The position numbers and the translations under genes are program-made. Positions 6,116 to 17,667 of a stretch of DNA of 61,626 bases are shown here, piece by piece. Position 1 is the stretch's first letter. Each line of letters begins with the position of its first letter. The stretch is from contig CALVED010000011.1 of NCBI GenBank assembly GCA_944326485.1, positions 1-61,626 of the forward strand, read 5' to 3'. Origin of the DNA: Candidatus Gastranaerophilales bacterium (GTDB taxonomy: Bacteria > Cyanobacteriota > Vampirovibrionia > Gastranaerophilales > Gastranaerophilaceae). The notes below the pieces were generated by a model. It searched no databases and was not told the DNA's origin. It saw only the letters and a list, made by a program, of their open reading frames with translations.

Positions 6116-7111
6116 ATGCAAACAGTAACATTAATTCCTGGTGATGGAATTGGACCTGAAATAACAGAAGAAGTTATCAGAATACTAAAAGAAGCTGGAG
6201 CACAGGTTGAATGGGATGTACAGACTGCCGGTGCAGATGTGGCAGAAAAAGAAGGCTCACCTCTTCCAGATAGAGTAATTGAATCCATTAAAAAAAACAA
6301 GGTTGCATTAAAAGCGCCAGTTACTACTCCTATCGGTAAAGGATTTAGAAGTGTAAATGTAGCATTAAGAAAATCTCTTGATTTATATGCAAACCTACGT
6401 CCTTGTAAAAATATAGAAGGAATAAAGACTCGTTTTGAAAAGGTAGATTTAGTAATAGTAAGAGAAAATACTGAAGATTTATATGCCGGTATTGAAAGGC
6501 AAATAGATGAAGATACAGCAGAATCAATAAAAATAATTACAAGAAAGGCCTCTACAAGGATTGTAAAATTTGCATTTGAATATGCAATAAAAAATAATAG
6601 AAAACTTGTAACTGCTGTTTCTAAAGCAAATATATGCAAATTATCTGACGGATTATTCCTTGAATGTGCAAGGGAAGTTGCAAAAAAATATCCGCAAATA
6701 GAATATAAAGAAATTTTGGTAGATAATCTTTGCATGCAATTAGTTCAGAAACCCGAACAATTTGATGTTCTTGTTCTTCCAAATTTATATGGTGATATTG
6801 TTTCAGACTTATGTGCAGGTTTAATTGGCGGTTTAGGTATTGCTCAAGGAGCAAATATTGGAGAAAATGCAGCTGTATTTGAACCAGTTCATGGAAGTGC
6901 ACCCGACATAAAAGGACAAAATAAAGCAAATCCTACAGCATTAATTCTTTCAGCCATTGAAATGCTTAAATACATTAATCAAAACGATATTGCAATAAAA
7001 ATTGAAAATGCTCTTTTCAAAACCATTAAAGAAGGTTCAATTTTAACACCTGATTTAGGTGGCATTTCAAGTACAAAAGAATATACAAATGCAATAATAA
7101 GAAATCTTTAA
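6116..7111 (+). CDS. NAD-type isocitrate dehydrogenase (IDH/IMDH family)
   Basis: A 331-residue beta-decarboxylating dehydrogenase. '[10 protein letters not shown]' is at residues 7-16. '[20 protein letters not shown]' near 78-97 carries the Ser and Arg residues that contact isocitrate. '[13 protein letters not shown]' and '[12 protein letters not shown]' follow, and the latter ends as in NAD-using enzymes. The Ser before V-N-V and the following L-R-K favour isocitrate over isopropylmalate. It ends the operon and would yield 2-oxoglutarate for glutamate synthesis. No obvious terminator follows before the next gene. Confidence 0.85.
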
Positions 7112-7198: not shown

Positions 7199-9220
7199 AT
7201 GAATAATATTTCATCTTTAATTACTGGTTTTAAATTATATTTAGAAGATTTAAGTGAGATTTCAAATAAACCTTATGCTGCTTCTGACTCCGATGTTAGT
7301 ATTTTCATGTATGCTAATGAATTTAAAAATTACTTATCTGATGAACTGGATATTGATCCTAAAATATTATCTATGAGTATTAATGATATTCTTGATATGG
7401 ATATCGAAAATGGTAAATTGGTTGATCCTGATGATGAGGAGGATGATGAAACTGTTTCTTCTGACCCTGATACTTCTCCTCAAACCTCTGAATCTACTGA
7501 TACACTACCTTCTGAAGATGATTCTACTTCGATTACTAATGATGAAAATTCATTATCTGATAGTGCTCAAATCCCACTAAATCAAGAAAATCAACAAAAC
7601 TCAATTGGTAATGATTCTGTTAGTGATTTATTAAATAACTTGTTTGTTGATGATACCTTTAAAAATATTATTGATTTAGATAAAAATGGCGAACTAAATG
7701 AAGAAGAAATCTACTCCTTCTTAGATGCTATTAAAGGTTTTGACGGCGATGATCAAAATATTTCCCTCGAAGATATTTTATCTGCTATTAAAACTATTAA
7801 AGACAATCTATTATCTTCTGATAATCAATTAGAAAATAATTTAGATGAAAATCAAGAAGTTGATGATCTACAAGAAGCTCAATCAGCTCCTTCTTCTTCC
7901 GCTGCTTCTGCTCCTTCCGGTGTATCCGGCTCCTCTGGTAGCTTTAGCCCTTCCGCTGTTTCTTCTTCTCAACAACAAGGTACTCAAGAAAAAACTCTTG
8001 ATAATATGTCTAAAGAAGAATTGAATTCTGAACTTAATTCTGCTCAAGCAGATCTATCTGATAAACAAAATACTTTATCTGCTATCTTAGACGGCTCTGA
8101 TTCCCAAATCGCTAAACTTCAACAAAATATTGATGATTCCTATGATACATATCTTGAACAACTTGAAAATGTTGATGAAGATTTAGCTGAACAAGTTGAT
8201 AATCTAAAAACTGATATTGATTCTAAAGAAGATGAAATCGATAATAAAGAACAAGAAATCTCTGATCAGGAATCTACTGTTAGTGACTCTGAAACAGCCT
8301 ACAATAATGCTGTCGCAACAAGAGAAACTCTTGAAAGCTCCCTTGATGCACTTAAATCTGCTGATACCTCTGATATGGACAGTGATAAAAAAGCTGAACT
8401 TGATTCTAAAATAGCTGAATTACAATCTAAAATCCAAGATGCTAAACAAGCTGAAGATGATGCTAAAACTGCTTGGGATGAAGCTGAAGATAAACTTAAA
8501 CAATTAAATGATGAAAAAGATTCTCTTCAAGCTGATCTTGATGAACTTAATGAACAAATGACTGCTCTTGAAGAAGAAATTACTCAAAAATATCCTGAAA
8601 TTCAACAATATCTCGATGCTTACAATACCGCTAAAGATGAATATGACTCCTATAAACAAGAAGCTATCTCTAACGCTAAAGCTGATATTCAGGAATCTCA
8701 AAACTATGTTAATGAAGTCCAAACAGCTATTAACAATTTTGATAATAAAGAAACTATTAAAGAATACTGCTTCAATGACTTTGGAGAAGACATTATAGAA
8801 TTTGCTTCTTCATTTATAGGAAACAATGAAGGAGATGGAAGTGCAGATAAATTTTTAGGAGGAGAAAACTCTTCTGAAATACCCTGGTGTGCAGCTTTCG
8901 TTGAATATGTAATGGAAAATTTCGGAGATTATGAAGATGTTCCAGATTGGTATAAAAATATAGAGAATAAATGGTGGTGTCCAAATATATATCAAGCCGC
9001 AAGTGATGCAGGTGCTATAATTAATGGAAATGAAGTACAAACAGGAGATATTGTACTCTTTGATTGGGATGGCGATGGCGTAAAAGATCATATAGGAATT
9101 GTTAAAGTCGCAGAAAACGGTCAAGTTATAACCATTGAAGGTAATACTTCTAATCAAGTTGCAGAAAAATCTTACGATATTAACGATAGCAGATTAACTT
9201 TCTGTAAAGTTGTTTCATAA
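7199..9220 (+). CDS. EF-hand / coiled-coil / CHAP-domain protein 1
   Basis: A 673-residue modular protein. It has an N-terminal domain (1-75) shared with the next gene and an acidic Ser/Thr-rich linker. Two EF-hand-like loops follow ('DLDKNGELNEEE' near 160 and 'FDGDDQNISLED' near 181), then a Gly/Ser hinge, a long coiled coil (about 265-510) and a C-terminal CHAP domain. The CHAP catalytic Cys is in 'PWCAAFV' (~564), the His in 'DHIGIV' (~630), and 'IEGNTS' follows. CHAP domains cleave peptidoglycan amide bonds. No signal peptide is visible, so the export route is unclear. Codons up to about 8724 are T/C-rich (TCT, ACT, GCT) and then switch to the A-rich style of the neighbourhood. Ribosome site CGAGG lies 10 nt upstream. 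Confidence 0.8.
   Translation: MNNISSLITGFKLYLEDLSEISNKPYAASDSDVSIFMYANEFKNYLSDELDIDPKILSMSINDILDMDIENGKLVDPDDEEDDETVSSDPDTSPQTSESTDTLPSEDDSTSITNDENSLSDSAQIPLNQENQQNSIGNDSVSDLLNNLFVDDTFKNIIDLDKNGELNEEEIYSFLDAIKGFDGDDQNISLEDILSAIKTIKDNLLSSDNQLENNLDENQEVDDLQEAQSAPSSSAASAPSGVSGSSGSFSPSAVSSSQQQGTQEKTLDNMSKEELNSELNSAQADLSDKQNTLSAILDGSDSQIAKLQQNIDDSYDTYLEQLENVDEDLAEQVDNLKTDIDSKEDEIDNKEQEISDQESTVSDSETAYNNAVATRETLESSLDALKSADTSDMDSDKKAELDSKIAELQSKIQDAKQAEDDAKTAWDEAEDKLKQLNDEKDSLQADLDELNEQMTALEEEITQKYPEIQQYLDAYNTAKDEYDSYKQEAISNAKADIQESQNYVNEVQTAINNFDNKETIKEYCFNDFGEDIIEFASSFIGNNEGDGSADKFLGGENSSEIPWCAAFVEYVMENFGDYEDVPDWYKNIENKWWCPNIYQAASDAGAIINGNEVQTGDIVLFDWDGDGVKDHIGIVKVAENGQVITIEGNTSNQVAEKSYDINDSRLTFCKVVS
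7986..8724 (+). repeat. 739-bp direct repeat, copy A (gene-conversion tract)
   Basis: Read by eye this segment matches 10117-10855 at every base except position 8692 (G here, A at 10823). It encodes the coiled coil of both CHAP proteins. The offset is 2131 bp. Sequence outside the tract is clearly diverged on both sides. Confidence 0.92.
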
Positions 9221-9341
9221 TCAATAATAATTATTTTTTATTGTCATAATATTAACATATTGTTACATTCTAGAATAAAATAGCTAAATAAAATATAAAC
9301 AATGCCGATTATATAAAATGTATGGAAAAAAAGGTATTGTT

Positions 9342-11342
9342 ATGAATTTTGAAGCACTAAAAGTAGGGTTTAAAAGTTACCTTGAAGAAATAAGTGAAAT
9401 AAGTAATAAAACTTATAGTACAGAAAACGCAGACATTAGTATTTTTATGTATGCAGATGAGTTTAAAAACTATTTGTCTGATGAATTAAATTGTGATTCT
9501 TCAATATTTTCAAAAAGTATCAATGAAATACTTGATATGGAAATAGTTAATGGTAAACTAGTTGCTCCTGAAGAAAATTCTAATAACCTTACTGAAGAAA
9601 ATTCAGGAGATAATATAATACAACCCGGAAATGACAATAATTCTACAAACCAAACACAAAATACAACTACAGAAGAAAATGCACAACCGCTTCCTAGCGA
9701 AAATGGAGTAATGCCAGAAGAAGGAAGCGAGACAAAAATAGAAGATCCTAATATAATAACAAATATTTTGAATGATTTACTACAAGACAAAACATTTAAA
9801 GATACTGTAGACAGAGACCAAGACGGTAATATAACAGAAGAAGAATTATCAGGATTTTTAGATGTAATAAAAAACTATGATAAAAATGGAGAAAATATTT
9901 CGCTTGAAGATATTATCTCGGCAGTAAAAGATATACAAGATGGTGTATTTGTATATGCAACAGATGAAGAAATAGAAGAAGAAATAGGACCAACTCCTCA
10001 AGCAGATGCAGCAGGAATTAGCGGTTCAGGAAGTACAGGCGGGGCATCCGGAAGTAGTGGCTCTTTTTCTGTTCCTTCAACATATAGCGCAGCTCAAAAG
10101 AAGGTTAGCGGAACAGAAGAAAAAACTCTTGATAATATGTCTAAAGAAGAATTGAATTCTGAACTTAATTCTGCTCAAGCAGATCTATCTGATAAACAAA
10201 ATACTTTATCTGCTATCTTAGACGGCTCTGATTCCCAAATCGCTAAACTTCAACAAAATATTGATGATTCCTATGATACATATCTTGAACAACTTGAAAA
10301 TGTTGATGAAGATTTAGCTGAACAAGTTGATAATCTAAAAACTGATATTGATTCTAAAGAAGATGAAATCGATAATAAAGAACAAGAAATCTCTGATCAG
10401 GAATCTACTGTTAGTGACTCTGAAACAGCCTACAATAATGCTGTCGCAACAAGAGAAACTCTTGAAAGCTCCCTTGATGCACTTAAATCTGCTGATACCT
10501 CTGATATGGACAGTGATAAAAAAGCTGAACTTGATTCTAAAATAGCTGAATTACAATCTAAAATCCAAGATGCTAAACAAGCTGAAGATGATGCTAAAAC
10601 TGCTTGGGATGAAGCTGAAGATAAACTTAAACAATTAAATGATGAAAAAGATTCTCTTCAAGCTGATCTTGATGAACTTAATGAACAAATGACTGCTCTT
10701 GAAGAAGAAATTACTCAAAAATATCCTGAAATTCAACAATATCTCGATGCTTACAATACCGCTAAAGATGAATATGACTCCTATAAACAAGAAGCTATCT
10801 CTAACGCTAAAGCTGATATTCAAGAATCTCAAAACTATGTTAATGAAGTCCAAACCGCAATAACTAATTTCAATAACAAAGAAGACACAAAAGAATACTG
10901 TATGTCAGGAGATTTAGGTGATGAAGTACTTGAACTGGCATATAGTATGCTTGGATATTCTGAAGGACAAGTAGAAGGTGAATGTGGTTATAATCTACCA
11001 GATGGGCTATGGTGTGCAGCATTTGTTAAATATGTATTATCAGAGACATATGGAGATGAATTACCGGAATGGTATACAAATTGCAATTATAATTCTTGTT
11101 CAGAAGTATTAGCCGCAGCAAATAACAATGGCTGTGCCTTTACAGATGCAAATGATGCAAAACCCGGAGATTTAATTATTTTCAATACAAATAGAGGAAC
11201 AGCAAGACATATTGGTATCGTTGTTTCTGTAGAAAATGGGGTAATTAAAACCATTGAAGGTAATACAAGCAGCCAAGTTGGAGAAAGAACATACGAAGTT
11301 GGTTCTTCTAAGGTTAACTCTTTTGTCAGAGTTACAGAATAA
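9342..11342 (+). CDS. EF-hand / coiled-coil / CHAP-domain protein 2
   Basis: A 666-residue paralogue of the preceding gene with the same order of parts: conserved N-terminal domain ('FKSYLEEISEISNKTY'), acidic linker, EF-hand loops ('DRDQDGNITEEE' near 157 and 'YDKNGENISLED'), Gly/Ser hinge, coiled coil and CHAP domain. The CHAP Cys is in 'LWCAAFV' (~557) and the His in 'RHIGIV' (~622). The ATG at 9342 is chosen over 9318 because AAAGG lies 7 nt before it and the N-terminus then aligns with protein 1. Only the coiled-coil part is T/C-rich; both flanks use A-rich codons, so the middle looks imported from gene 1. No signal peptide is seen. Confidence 0.8.
   Translation: MNFEALKVGFKSYLEEISEISNKTYSTENADISIFMYADEFKNYLSDELNCDSSIFSKSINEILDMEIVNGKLVAPEENSNNLTEENSGDNIIQPGNDNNSTNQTQNTTTEENAQPLPSENGVMPEEGSETKIEDPNIITNILNDLLQDKTFKDTVDRDQDGNITEEELSGFLDVIKNYDKNGENISLEDIISAVKDIQDGVFVYATDEEIEEEIGPTPQADAAGISGSGSTGGASGSSGSFSVPSTYSAAQKKVSGTEEKTLDNMSKEELNSELNSAQADLSDKQNTLSAILDGSDSQIAKLQQNIDDSYDTYLEQLENVDEDLAEQVDNLKTDIDSKEDEIDNKEQEISDQESTVSDSETAYNNAVATRETLESSLDALKSADTSDMDSDKKAELDSKIAELQSKIQDAKQAEDDAKTAWDEAEDKLKQLNDEKDSLQADLDELNEQMTALEEEITQKYPEIQQYLDAYNTAKDEYDSYKQEAISNAKADIQESQNYVNEVQTAITNFNNKEDTKEYCMSGDLGDEVLELAYSMLGYSEGQVEGECGYNLPDGLWCAAFVKYVLSETYGDELPEWYTNCNYNSCSEVLAAANNNGCAFTDANDAKPGDLIIFNTNRGTARHIGIVVSVENGVIKTIEGNTSSQVGERTYEVGSSKVNSFVRVTE
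10117..10855 (+). repeat. 739-bp direct repeat, copy B (gene-conversion tract)
   Basis: Second copy of the segment at 7986-8724, differing at one base by eye. It lies inside the second CHAP gene, and its codon style contrasts with the flanks of that gene, so this is the probable recipient. Confidence 0.92.
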
Positions 11343-11382: not shown

Positions 11383-12981
11383 TTATACACCTGCTTTTAC
11401 TCTAGGGCCTGCATTTACTATAGCAGAAGGCATATTTGGATATTTAGCAGCAAAGTTATCTACAAACATTTGTGCTAATTTATTAGCTGTTTGATCATAA
11501 GCTGCTTTATCTGACCACATACCTCTTGCATCAAGCATTTCATTTGGAACACCAGGACAAGAAGTAGGATAATCAACATTAAATACATCATGATGCTTAA
11601 ATTCAACATTATCAAATGAACCATTTAATGCTGCACTAACCATAGCACGAGTATATGATAACTTCATACGTTTAGCTCCAGAAGAAGCACTTCCGCCAGC
11701 CCAACCGGTATTAACTAAATAAACTTTAGTACCATACTTATCTAATTTTTCACCAAGCATTTGAGCATATACAGAAGCATCCATTGGCATAAATGGCTCA
11801 CCGAATAAAGTAGAGAATGTTGGTTGAGGCTCTGTAACACCACGTTCAGTACCTGCTAATTTTGAAGTAAATCCTGTTACAAAGTGATACATAGCAGCAT
11901 TTTTATCCAATCTTGAAATTGGAGGTAAAACACCAAATGCATCAGCAGTTAAGAATACAACAACTTTAGGTATTCCGCCTTTGCTTGGAACTTGTGCATT
12001 ATTAATATAATCTATTGGATAACCAACACGAGTATTTTCAGTTAAAGAACCATCATTAAAATCAAATTCTCTTGTATTTTCATCCATTATAACATTTTCA
12101 ACTAAAGAACCAAATTTAATTGCATTATAAATATCTGGCTCATGTTCTGCTGAAAGGTTAATACATTTTGCATAACAACCACCTTCAAAGTTAAATATAC
12201 CATCTGGTGACCAACCATGCTCGTCATCACCAATTAATTTTCTTGAAGGATCAGCAGATAAAGTAGTTTTACCAGTTCCTGATAAACCGAAGAATACAGC
12301 TGTTTCACCAGTTTGAGGATCCATATTTGCACTACAATGCATTGGAAGAACATTTTTCTTTGTCATAATGTAGTTCATTGTAGCAAATACAGATTTTTTA
12401 ATTTCTCCTGCATATTGAGAACCACAAATTATAATTACATGTTCTTCATAATCAATTGCAATACAAGCTTCAGAATTTACACCATCTATTTCAGGGTCGC
12501 ATTTAAAACCGGGAGCGCAAAGAATTGTATAATCCGGTTCACCGTATGATGCTAATTCTTCTTGAGTTGGTCTGATTAATAATTGATGAATAAATAAATT
12601 TTGGCTTGCTAATTCATTTATTACACGGAACTTTTGTGTATATTTTTTATCAGCACCAGCAAAACCATCAAAAATAAATATTTCACGACCTTGTAAATAA
12701 GCAGCTATTTTACCTTTTATAGCGTCAAATTTTTCTTTAGAAATAGGTCTATTAACTTTACCCCAAGCAATTTCATTGTGAACACCATCAGTATCAACAA
12801 TAAATTTGTCCTTAGGTGAACGACCAGTATATTTACCAGTTGTAACAACTAAAGCACCGGTAGAAGATAATTTTCCTTCACCTCTACGAAGAGCAGCTTC
12901 AGTTAATTGGGCAGGTGATAAATTACGATGAACTTCTTTAGTACCTATAATTCCAAATTTTTCGATTCCATATGTTTCCAT
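11383..12981 (-). CDS. pckA: phosphoenolpyruvate carboxykinase (ATP)
   Basis: A 532-residue cytosolic enzyme, the usual length of ATP-dependent PckA. 'GLSGTGKTTLS' near residues 230-240 is the kinase-1a phosphate loop and 'IGDDEHGW' follows as the metal site. 'TGKYTGRSPKDKFIV' lies near the N-terminus. It interconverts oxaloacetate plus ATP with PEP plus ADP plus CO2. In fermenters it often runs toward oxaloacetate and makes ATP. Ribosome site AAGGAG is 6 nt before the ATG. It lies downstream of oadB with its own -10, so it is probably co-expressed with the decarboxylase but can be transcribed alone. Confidence 0.97.
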   Translation of the reverse strand: METYGIEKFGIIGTKEVHRNLSPAQLTEAALRRGEGKLSSTGALVVTTGKYTGRSPKDKFIVDTDGVHNEIAWGKVNRPISKEKFDAIKGKIAAYLQGREIFIFDGFAGADKKYTQKFRVINELASQNLFIHQLLIRPTQEELASYGEPDYTILCAPGFKCDPEIDGVNSEACIAIDYEEHVIIICGSQYAGEIKKSVFATMNYIMTKKNVLPMHCSANMDPQTGETAVFFGLSGTGKTTLSADPSRKLIGDDEHGWSPDGIFNFEGGCYAKCINLSAEHEPDIYNAIKFGSLVENVIMDENTREFDFNDGSLTENTRVGYPIDYINNAQVPSKGGIPKVVVFLTADAFGVLPPISRLDKNAAMYHFVTGFTSKLAGTERGVTEPQPTFSTLFGEPFMPMDASVYAQMLGEKLDKYGTKVYLVNTGWAGGSASSGAKRMKLSYTRAMVSAALNGSFDNVEFKHHDVFNVDYPTSCPGVPNEMLDARGMWSDKAAYDQTANKLAQMFVDNFAAKYPNMPSAIVNAGPRVKAGV

Positions 12982-17071: not shown

Positions 17072-17259
17072 AATTTTGTCCGAGAAAAAGTTCAAAATTA
17101 GCTGAAAGTGTGAGTGAATTTTTTTTTACAAAATGAACCAAAAACTTTGTTTTTGAGTGAGCTTGTATCCGTAGTGAAACGAAGGTGAGTGGCGTTTTTA
17201 AAATGTGAGTACTTTGTTAGTGAGGATGACTCGGTAACAAAGTACTATACTAGATTAAA
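17072..17259 (-). repeat. dispersed ~190-bp intergenic repeat, best full-length copy
   Basis: Reference copy of the family. Read on the minus strand it begins 'TTTAATCTAGTATAGTAC'. It then has the near-palindrome GTTACCGAG-TCATC-CTCACTAAC, 'AAAAACGCCACTCACC', 'CACTACGGATACAAGCTCAC', 'CAAAGTTTTTGGTTCATTTT' and 'TTCACTCACACTTTCAGC', and ends 'CTTTTTCTCGGACAAAATT'. CACTCA recurs four times. The left end abuts the stop codon of the receiver gene. Other copies lie at 218, 1207, 1335, 24996, 31666, 37515, 48146, 51813 and 59732. Confidence 0.85.
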
Positions 17260-17667
17260 TTATTTATTCAAAAAAGGCATTATTTTTTCAAACATGAACT
17301 TTAATAAAAGCTTATTTCTAATCAAAAGATTTTTTGATAAACATTCAACATTATATTTCTTTGCAATCATTTCAATATTATACATTGCAGATATAATCAC
17401 AATTTTAGAATTATTATATTCTTTTATAGATTTAATTTGTTCAATTAACCACTCACCTGCCAATTTTGGTTCAAAATCCGTTTCCATCTGTAAATCAGTA
17501 ATTATTAAATCAAAAGGATTTAAAATATTATGTTTTATAATATCTAATGCTTTTTTTGCATCTTCTGCAAAACTTATTACAAAGTAATCTTTATACAAAT
17601 CTGTTATTACTTCTTTATGAAATAATAACCAAGATTTAGTATCATCAACTATTAAAATTCTATTCAT
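17260..17667 (-). CDS. stand-alone response-regulator receiver protein
   Basis: A 135-residue CheY-like receiver with no output domain. The acidic pair D8-D9 is in 'LIVDDT', the phospho-acceptor D58 is in 'IITDLQM', Ser near 94 is in 'VIISAMY', and the conserved Lys is in 'CLSKNL' near the end. It would be phosphorylated by a histidine kinase that is not in this window and act by protein contact. It has no ribosome site. A TATAAT lies 7 nt before the ATG, consistent with a leaderless message. Its stop codon abuts an intergenic repeat. Confidence 0.85.
   Translation of the reverse strand: MNRILIVDDTKSWLLFHKEVITDLYKDYFVISFAEDAKKALDIIKHNILNPFDLIITDLQMETDFEPKLAGEWLIEQIKSIKEYNNSKIVIISAMYNIEMIAKKYNVECLSKNLLIRNKLLLKFMFEKIMPFLNK

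Follow-up and report, generated by a model that had tools for sequence, protein, structure and literature searches.

In the stretch of DNA analysed here, two tandem genes encode CHAP-domain proteins of the same architecture, and the helical-stalk segment of the first gene appears to have been copied recently and non-reciprocally over that of the second. The window is one whole contig (61,626 bp; C11) of a 1.9-Mb, 15-contig genome, whose closest named relatives are metagenome-assembled genomes of Candidatus Gastranaerophilales. Gene 1 (7199–9220, + strand, 673 aa) and gene 2 (9342–11342, + strand, 666 aa) both consist of an N-domain, an EF-hand-like pair, a linker, a helical stalk and a C-terminal CHAP domain. 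The reading that we favour, with a probability of about 0.8, is gene conversion in the broad sense, in which the stalk of gene 1 replaced nearly the whole stalk of gene 2 as the latest of episodic exchanges.

The tract in question is 739 bp long and spans nearly the whole helical stalk. Its copies at 7986–8724 in gene 1 (the likely donor) and 10117–10855 in gene 2 (the likely recipient), both on the + strand and offset by 2131 bp, differ only at 8692 (G) and 10823 (A), exactly as a first-pass annotation of this DNA had reported. The difference is synonymous (CAG/CAA) and lies 33 bp inside the right tract edge, so that the repeat is exact over 706 bp. Beyond the tract, 20-bp blocks match at 2–12 of 20 positions (ungapped identity). 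The same annotation had described the surrounding sequence as well diverged; the divergence is indeed strong, but the flanks are still homologous, with ~44% amino-acid identity in the N part and in the CHAP part. No third copy of the tract was found in the genome, where the next-best match is 65% identical over 207 bp. Among four-fold degenerate codons with the same amino acid in both genes, all 83 of those in the tract agree in the third base, against 10 of 26 for the N part and 13 of 26 for the CHAP part. Protein constraint cannot account for the agreement in the tract, which reflects copying at the DNA level.

Codon style, orthologues and tree tests together point to gene 1 as the donor and gene 2 as the recipient. 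The fraction of four-fold codons ending in a pyrimidine (C/T) is 0.84 in the N part of gene 1 and 0.90 in the tract. It is 0.39 in the N part of gene 2, 0.52 in the CHAP part of gene 1 and 0.40 in that of gene 2; for comparison, other members of the family have 0.23–0.67 and most ribosomal-protein genes 0.29–0.45. The change points of this style in gene 2 are 10125 and 10857 (log-likelihood gains of 22.5 and 18.5), right beside the tract edges. In gene 1 the style runs on from the upstream part into the tract and shifts at the right side only, at ~8783 (broad support 8723–8810). When compared with its orthologues in the relatives G020 and G027, gene 2 is 66–77% identical in the N-domain, EF-hand-like pair and C-terminal module and 52–53% in the stalk, and its stalk has 66% identity with that of the gene-1 orthologue in G021. 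Gene 1 resembles this G021 gene throughout its length (67/58/67/68%). In approximately unbiased (AU) tests, grouping the gene 2 stalk with its own orthologues was rejected (p = 0.0003). Grouping the N-domain and EF-hand-like pair of gene 1 with those of gene 2 was rejected as well (p = 0.005), the latter grouping with G020 and G027. Thus, the recent gene conversion proposed in the first-pass annotation is well supported, and a direction can be added to it.

The unusual codon style of gene 1 deserves mention in its own right. Its N part and stalk (7199–8780) stand at 0.84–0.90, and none of the other family members examined or of the ribosomal-protein genes has this style. The style ends near the right tract edge, though the CHAP part of gene 1 is equally close to its G021 orthologue. 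Perhaps an older import or replacement of N part and stalk lies behind it. High-expression codon usage was rejected as its cause, as ribosomal-protein genes mostly have the reverse style, and so was strand bias alone, as the minus-strand genes of the window reach 0.51–0.75, below the values of gene 1. Third-base style does track the strand in the window: minus-strand genes mostly have 0.57–0.67 pyrimidine-ending codons and plus-strand genes mostly 0.34–0.54, which suggests an asymmetry between the replication strands.

The left edge of the tract is at most six codons away from the point at which alignment of the two genes becomes possible, and its right edge falls at the divergence of their CHAP parts. 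Its edges thus coincide with fading homology, which fits homology-bounded recombination. The exchange would have been limited to the stalk as the alignable module, since the low-complexity linker to its left cannot be aligned and the CHAP domains to its right have diverged strongly. It may have taken the route of RecA-type classical conversion, of a circular 2131-bp intermediate or of uptake of a fragment; any benefit of the exchange, like its route and the function of the proteins, is something that we infer. Both tract copies have the same codon phase, so that either possible hybrid keeps an open reading frame, of 670 aa in N1-stalk-CHAP2 and 677 aa in N2-stalk-CHAP1. By recombination within the resulting direct repeat, with its spacing of 2131 bp, the former could arise by deletion and the latter by duplication. 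The in-frame fusion by a 2131-bp deletion that had been suggested for this repeat is thus possible. Its proposed consequence, a shuffling of catalytic ends, is plausible from the sequences, with indirect support from mosaic paralogues and one free-standing CHAP (see below); no hybrid of gene 1 and gene 2 was seen.

Several points weigh against a conversion from gene 1 to gene 2. Between G020 and G027 the stalk is 65% identical and the other modules 76–87%, which shows that the stalk evolves faster. This lowers the orthologue identity expected for the gene 2 stalk to ~57% and weakens the identity argument taken alone, which we therefore regard as supportive and not decisive. Judging from relatives, the two stalks were probably ~65–70% identical at the nucleotide level before the event, which is low for classical RecA-dependent conversion. 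Moreover, the assembly is of a short-read, k=77-like kind, and both the interior identity and the copy number may be choices of the assembler. The overlap between contig ends is exactly 77 bases in four pairs and 48 in one more, as expected for a SPAdes-like de Bruijn assembly of short reads with k=77, so that the artefact raised as a caution in the first-pass annotation is a real concern.

An exact repeat of 706 bp is longer than the usual read pairs. A contig can cross such a repeat if it forms a simple loop, in which case small differences in its interior may be merged by the assembler. The contig here was probably led through a collapsed loop of this kind, and the near-identity itself could be an effect of this: similar stalks would have been collapsed into one edge, their interior differences lost and the contig threaded twice through the loop. 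The real situation would then be two copies with several to tens of differences, a different number of 2131-bp units, or a joining of junctions that belong to different strains. Besides the 77-base contig ends, it is favoured by the search for a 16S gene, which found none in the assembly, and by the position of the sole retained difference, so close to the edge that it lies within one k-mer (77 bp) of unique sequence. It is also favoured by a contig of G024 that ends in the stalk of the second tandem gene there, after only 28 bp of this module. The last bases of this contig (L051:6851–6878) are 100% identical to the gene 1/gene 2 stalk there, and the second copy expected for such an end was not found in the G024 bin. 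Against it, the window is free of Ns, and a de Bruijn assembly needs both junctions between gene 2 and the tract as 77-mers in the reads. In addition, stalks ~66% alike, as at the orthologue level, share no 77-mers and would assemble apart; it is therefore unlikely that the gene 2 stalk is truly diverged, and only the exactness is doubtful. Since the junctions are expected in the reads and two-thirds-alike stalks would be kept apart, the high similarity and the tract edges are probably real, which holds for the similarity and not for exact identity or copy number. Overall we consider it unlikely, though worth keeping in mind, that assembly accounts for the tract.

Other explanations fare less well. 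An independent import of both stalks from a third, unsampled source has in its favour that gene 1 shows, in its N part and stalk, a codon style unusual for the genome and the family. This style includes the N part of gene 1 and not that of gene 2, which makes gene 1 the simpler source, and nothing closer than 72% nucleotide identity was found among 383 genomes of the order, so that we regard a third source as improbable. A scan of viral contigs gave no relative either, and a phage or viral origin was rejected, the phage matches being distant ones to CHAP only. A recent tandem duplication of one gene, with flanking modules later diverged or replaced, would agree with the tandem placement, the shared architecture and the pairs of G004 and G388, which are alike in all shared modules. 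Synonymous sites in the flanks are near chance, though, the N-domain and EF-hand-like pair of gene 2 group with G020 and G027 and not with gene 1, and two separate end replacements would be required; this makes a duplication very improbable. Purifying selection on the stalk has nothing specific in its favour, the stalk being merely one recognisable module across the family. The synonymous sites refute it, and between species the stalk ranks with the faster-evolving modules, leaving this explanation next to no chance. The first-pass annotation had named the same identity in distant relatives as a sign of selection; such identity was not seen, the best of the other tandem pairs being ~68–87% identical at the nucleotide level. 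A near-identical tract was found in none of the other pairs sampled, with 87% over 857 bp (G388) as the best long match. We thus retain recent conversion of the gene 2 stalk by gene 1.

The modules of the two proteins were delimited with phmmer. Gene 1 comprises the N-domain (residues 1–95; 7199–7483), the EF-hand-like pair (136–210; 7604–7828), the helical stalk as searched (263–520; 7985–8758) and the Pfam stretch of the CHAP domain (559–649; 8873–9145). The counterparts in gene 2 lie at 9342–9632, 9738–9962, 10116–10883 and 11007–11264 (CHAP residues 564–649), all on the + strand. The start of gene 2 was placed at the ATG at 9342, which aligns with relatives; an upstream ATG at 9318 would give 674 aa. 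In a structure model of protein 2, residues 276–527 are nearly all helix, most ten-residue blocks having a predicted local distance difference test (pLDDT) score of 96–98, with ~79 near residue 395; outside the stalk the model is of low confidence. YwqH-like, SMC and similar matches to the stalk were below cut-off and were set aside as generic coiled-coil similarity. The family profile of the EF-hand-like pair weakly matches solved calcium-binding EF-hand chains (e.g., 1jfj, E 1.5e-5). The linker between this pair and the stalk is of low complexity in both proteins; in a family member of G016 the linker contains a short tandem repeat (L048:7647–7757; 81 bp identical, 30-bp spacing).

The CHAP domains (PF05257) match at 39.6 bits (E 7e-10) and 36.7 bits (E 6e-9), above the Pfam gathering cut-off of 26 bits. 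Both proteins keep the catalytic residues, the Cys of WCAAF (C566 in gene 2, invariant in the alignment) and the His of HIGIV, which is the only His of each protein. On this basis they are probably peptidoglycan hydrolases. Both are very acidic. Neither sequence has an apparent signal peptide, hydrophobic signal or membrane segment, which leaves the first-pass description as surface proteins unsupported.

The tandem pair is flanked on the left by an isocitrate/isopropylmalate dehydrogenase (IDH) family gene (6116–7111, + strand; PF00180) and on the right by an ATP-dependent PEPCK gene (11383–12981, − strand; PF01293), followed by the OAD beta and alpha genes. In relatives whose neighbouring genes were visible, the IDH gene stands in the same place (81–92% identical), PEPCK is 93% identical in G033 and OAD beta 82–86% in most, and the citrate-synthase-like and aconitase genes further left are mostly 88–98% identical. 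Between these genes lie one family gene (e.g., G020, G015, G014, G005) or two (e.g., G021, G001, G006, G027, G012), and in G033 two plus a free-standing CHAP open reading frame. The latter (166 aa; L046:2821–3318), beside two full family genes, resembles a displaced C-terminal module. Judged from these comparisons, the family occupies a fixed, hypervariable slot between the IDH and PEPCK/OAD genes in Gastranaerophilales. Further members are dispersed elsewhere in the genomes, and some end in diverged CHAP-like domains. In the G004 pair (L050:3842–8245) the C-terminus of the second member is a putative-esterase match (PF00756, E 2.9e-6) in place of CHAP. In G018, two members resembling the G001 tandem pair sit on separate contigs (L053, L054), in a rearrangement or misjoin; within the stretches covered, neither was seen to have an IDH gene next to it.

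The copying of the gene 2 stalk would be the most recent of episodic module exchanges among tandem copies in this slot. The tandem stalks of G021, G001, G006 and G269 are 64–68% identical, at the 96–98th percentile of cross-genome pairs, while the N-domain, EF-hand-like pair and C-terminal module of these pairs lie at the 20th–71st percentile, with the exception of the N-domain of G021 (89th). In G012 and G033 the pattern is reversed, with N-domains 59–71% and stalks 23–25% identical. As stalk-alike and N-alike pairs both occur, differing module rates do not explain the mosaic. The stalks of G021, G001 and G006, together with G018, form one supported clade (G269 is absent from the tree), and the four stalk-alike pairs may share one old event. 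Across all members, Mantel correlations between modules are weak but positive for all pairs (0.23–0.36) and do not single out the stalk, which suggests that the modules are loosely, not completely, decoupled.

Elsewhere in the window, an interspersed ~75-bp repeat with an inverted repeat (TTGTTAGCGAG...CTCGCTAACAA) was noted at 244–318 and 17186–17260, and the first 250 bases of the contig have partial matches on several other contigs.

Taken together, the two genes offer a clean, directional case in which copying between paralogues of an uncultured lineage was limited to one module. The metabolic neighbours of the locus stay 81–98% identical, while the proteins that they enclose are rebuilt. 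If confirmed by long reads, this would be a natural locus for studying the reshuffling of CHAP-bearing proteins in gut bacteria; short-read genomes hide such tracts. We found no paper naming both Gastranaerophilales and the CHAP domain, and the family and the hotspot are apparently undescribed, while the mechanism is ordinary.

The tract has the marks by which gene conversion is recognised: near-identity bounded by diverged homologous sequence, synonymous homogenisation and a recipient tract discordant with its flanks. Conversion between paralogues is described for the PE/PPE and ESX genes of Mycobacterium tuberculosis, which likewise show tract-limited homogenisation and diversity hotspots poorly visible to short reads (PMC13061034, PMC12046097). 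In the present case, by contrast, the tract corresponds to a single structural module with diverged sequence on either side, the organism is an uncultured member of the Gastranaerophilales, and the conversion is inferred from one assembly. As in long-lasting concerted evolution of prokaryotic genes, within-genome paralogues are closer than orthologues, here in the stalk; that process keeps whole genes alike over long periods, whereas a single module is affected here, episodically (PMC6053082). PcsB-type hydrolases also have a helical coil followed by CHAP, and PcsB came first among the fold matches, though weakly (E 0.0026). The PcsB equivalog NF046104 matches weakly in the coil (E 8e-4), its 18.6 and 18.8 bits staying far below the cut-off of 450, and unlike PcsB the proteins here have no visible signal peptide and carry an extra N-domain and EF-hand pair. 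Rhs genes diversify core and tip by C-terminal displacement, for which a circular unit has been proposed, and share with this family a common core with variable C-termini, decoupled evolution and a proposed recombination between homologous segments (PMC2935791). Free-standing C-terminal fragments are a further likeness, represented here by the CHAP reading frame of G033. The family is not a member of Rhs, however: its C-termini are mostly CHAP-like, it has no Pfam or NCBIfam match to the Rhs (YD-repeat) core, and no immunity gene was noticed beside the tandem pair, where the next genes are metabolic, though no search was aimed at one. We raise only tentatively, as the less likely view, that the slot is a dedicated diversification locus, in which tandem modular proteins would swap stalk, N-domain and catalytic ends and leave free-standing CHAPs behind, in an Rhs-like manner on an undescribed scaffold. 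Among known systems, PE/PPE conversion comes closest to the present case in mechanism and Rhs in behaviour.

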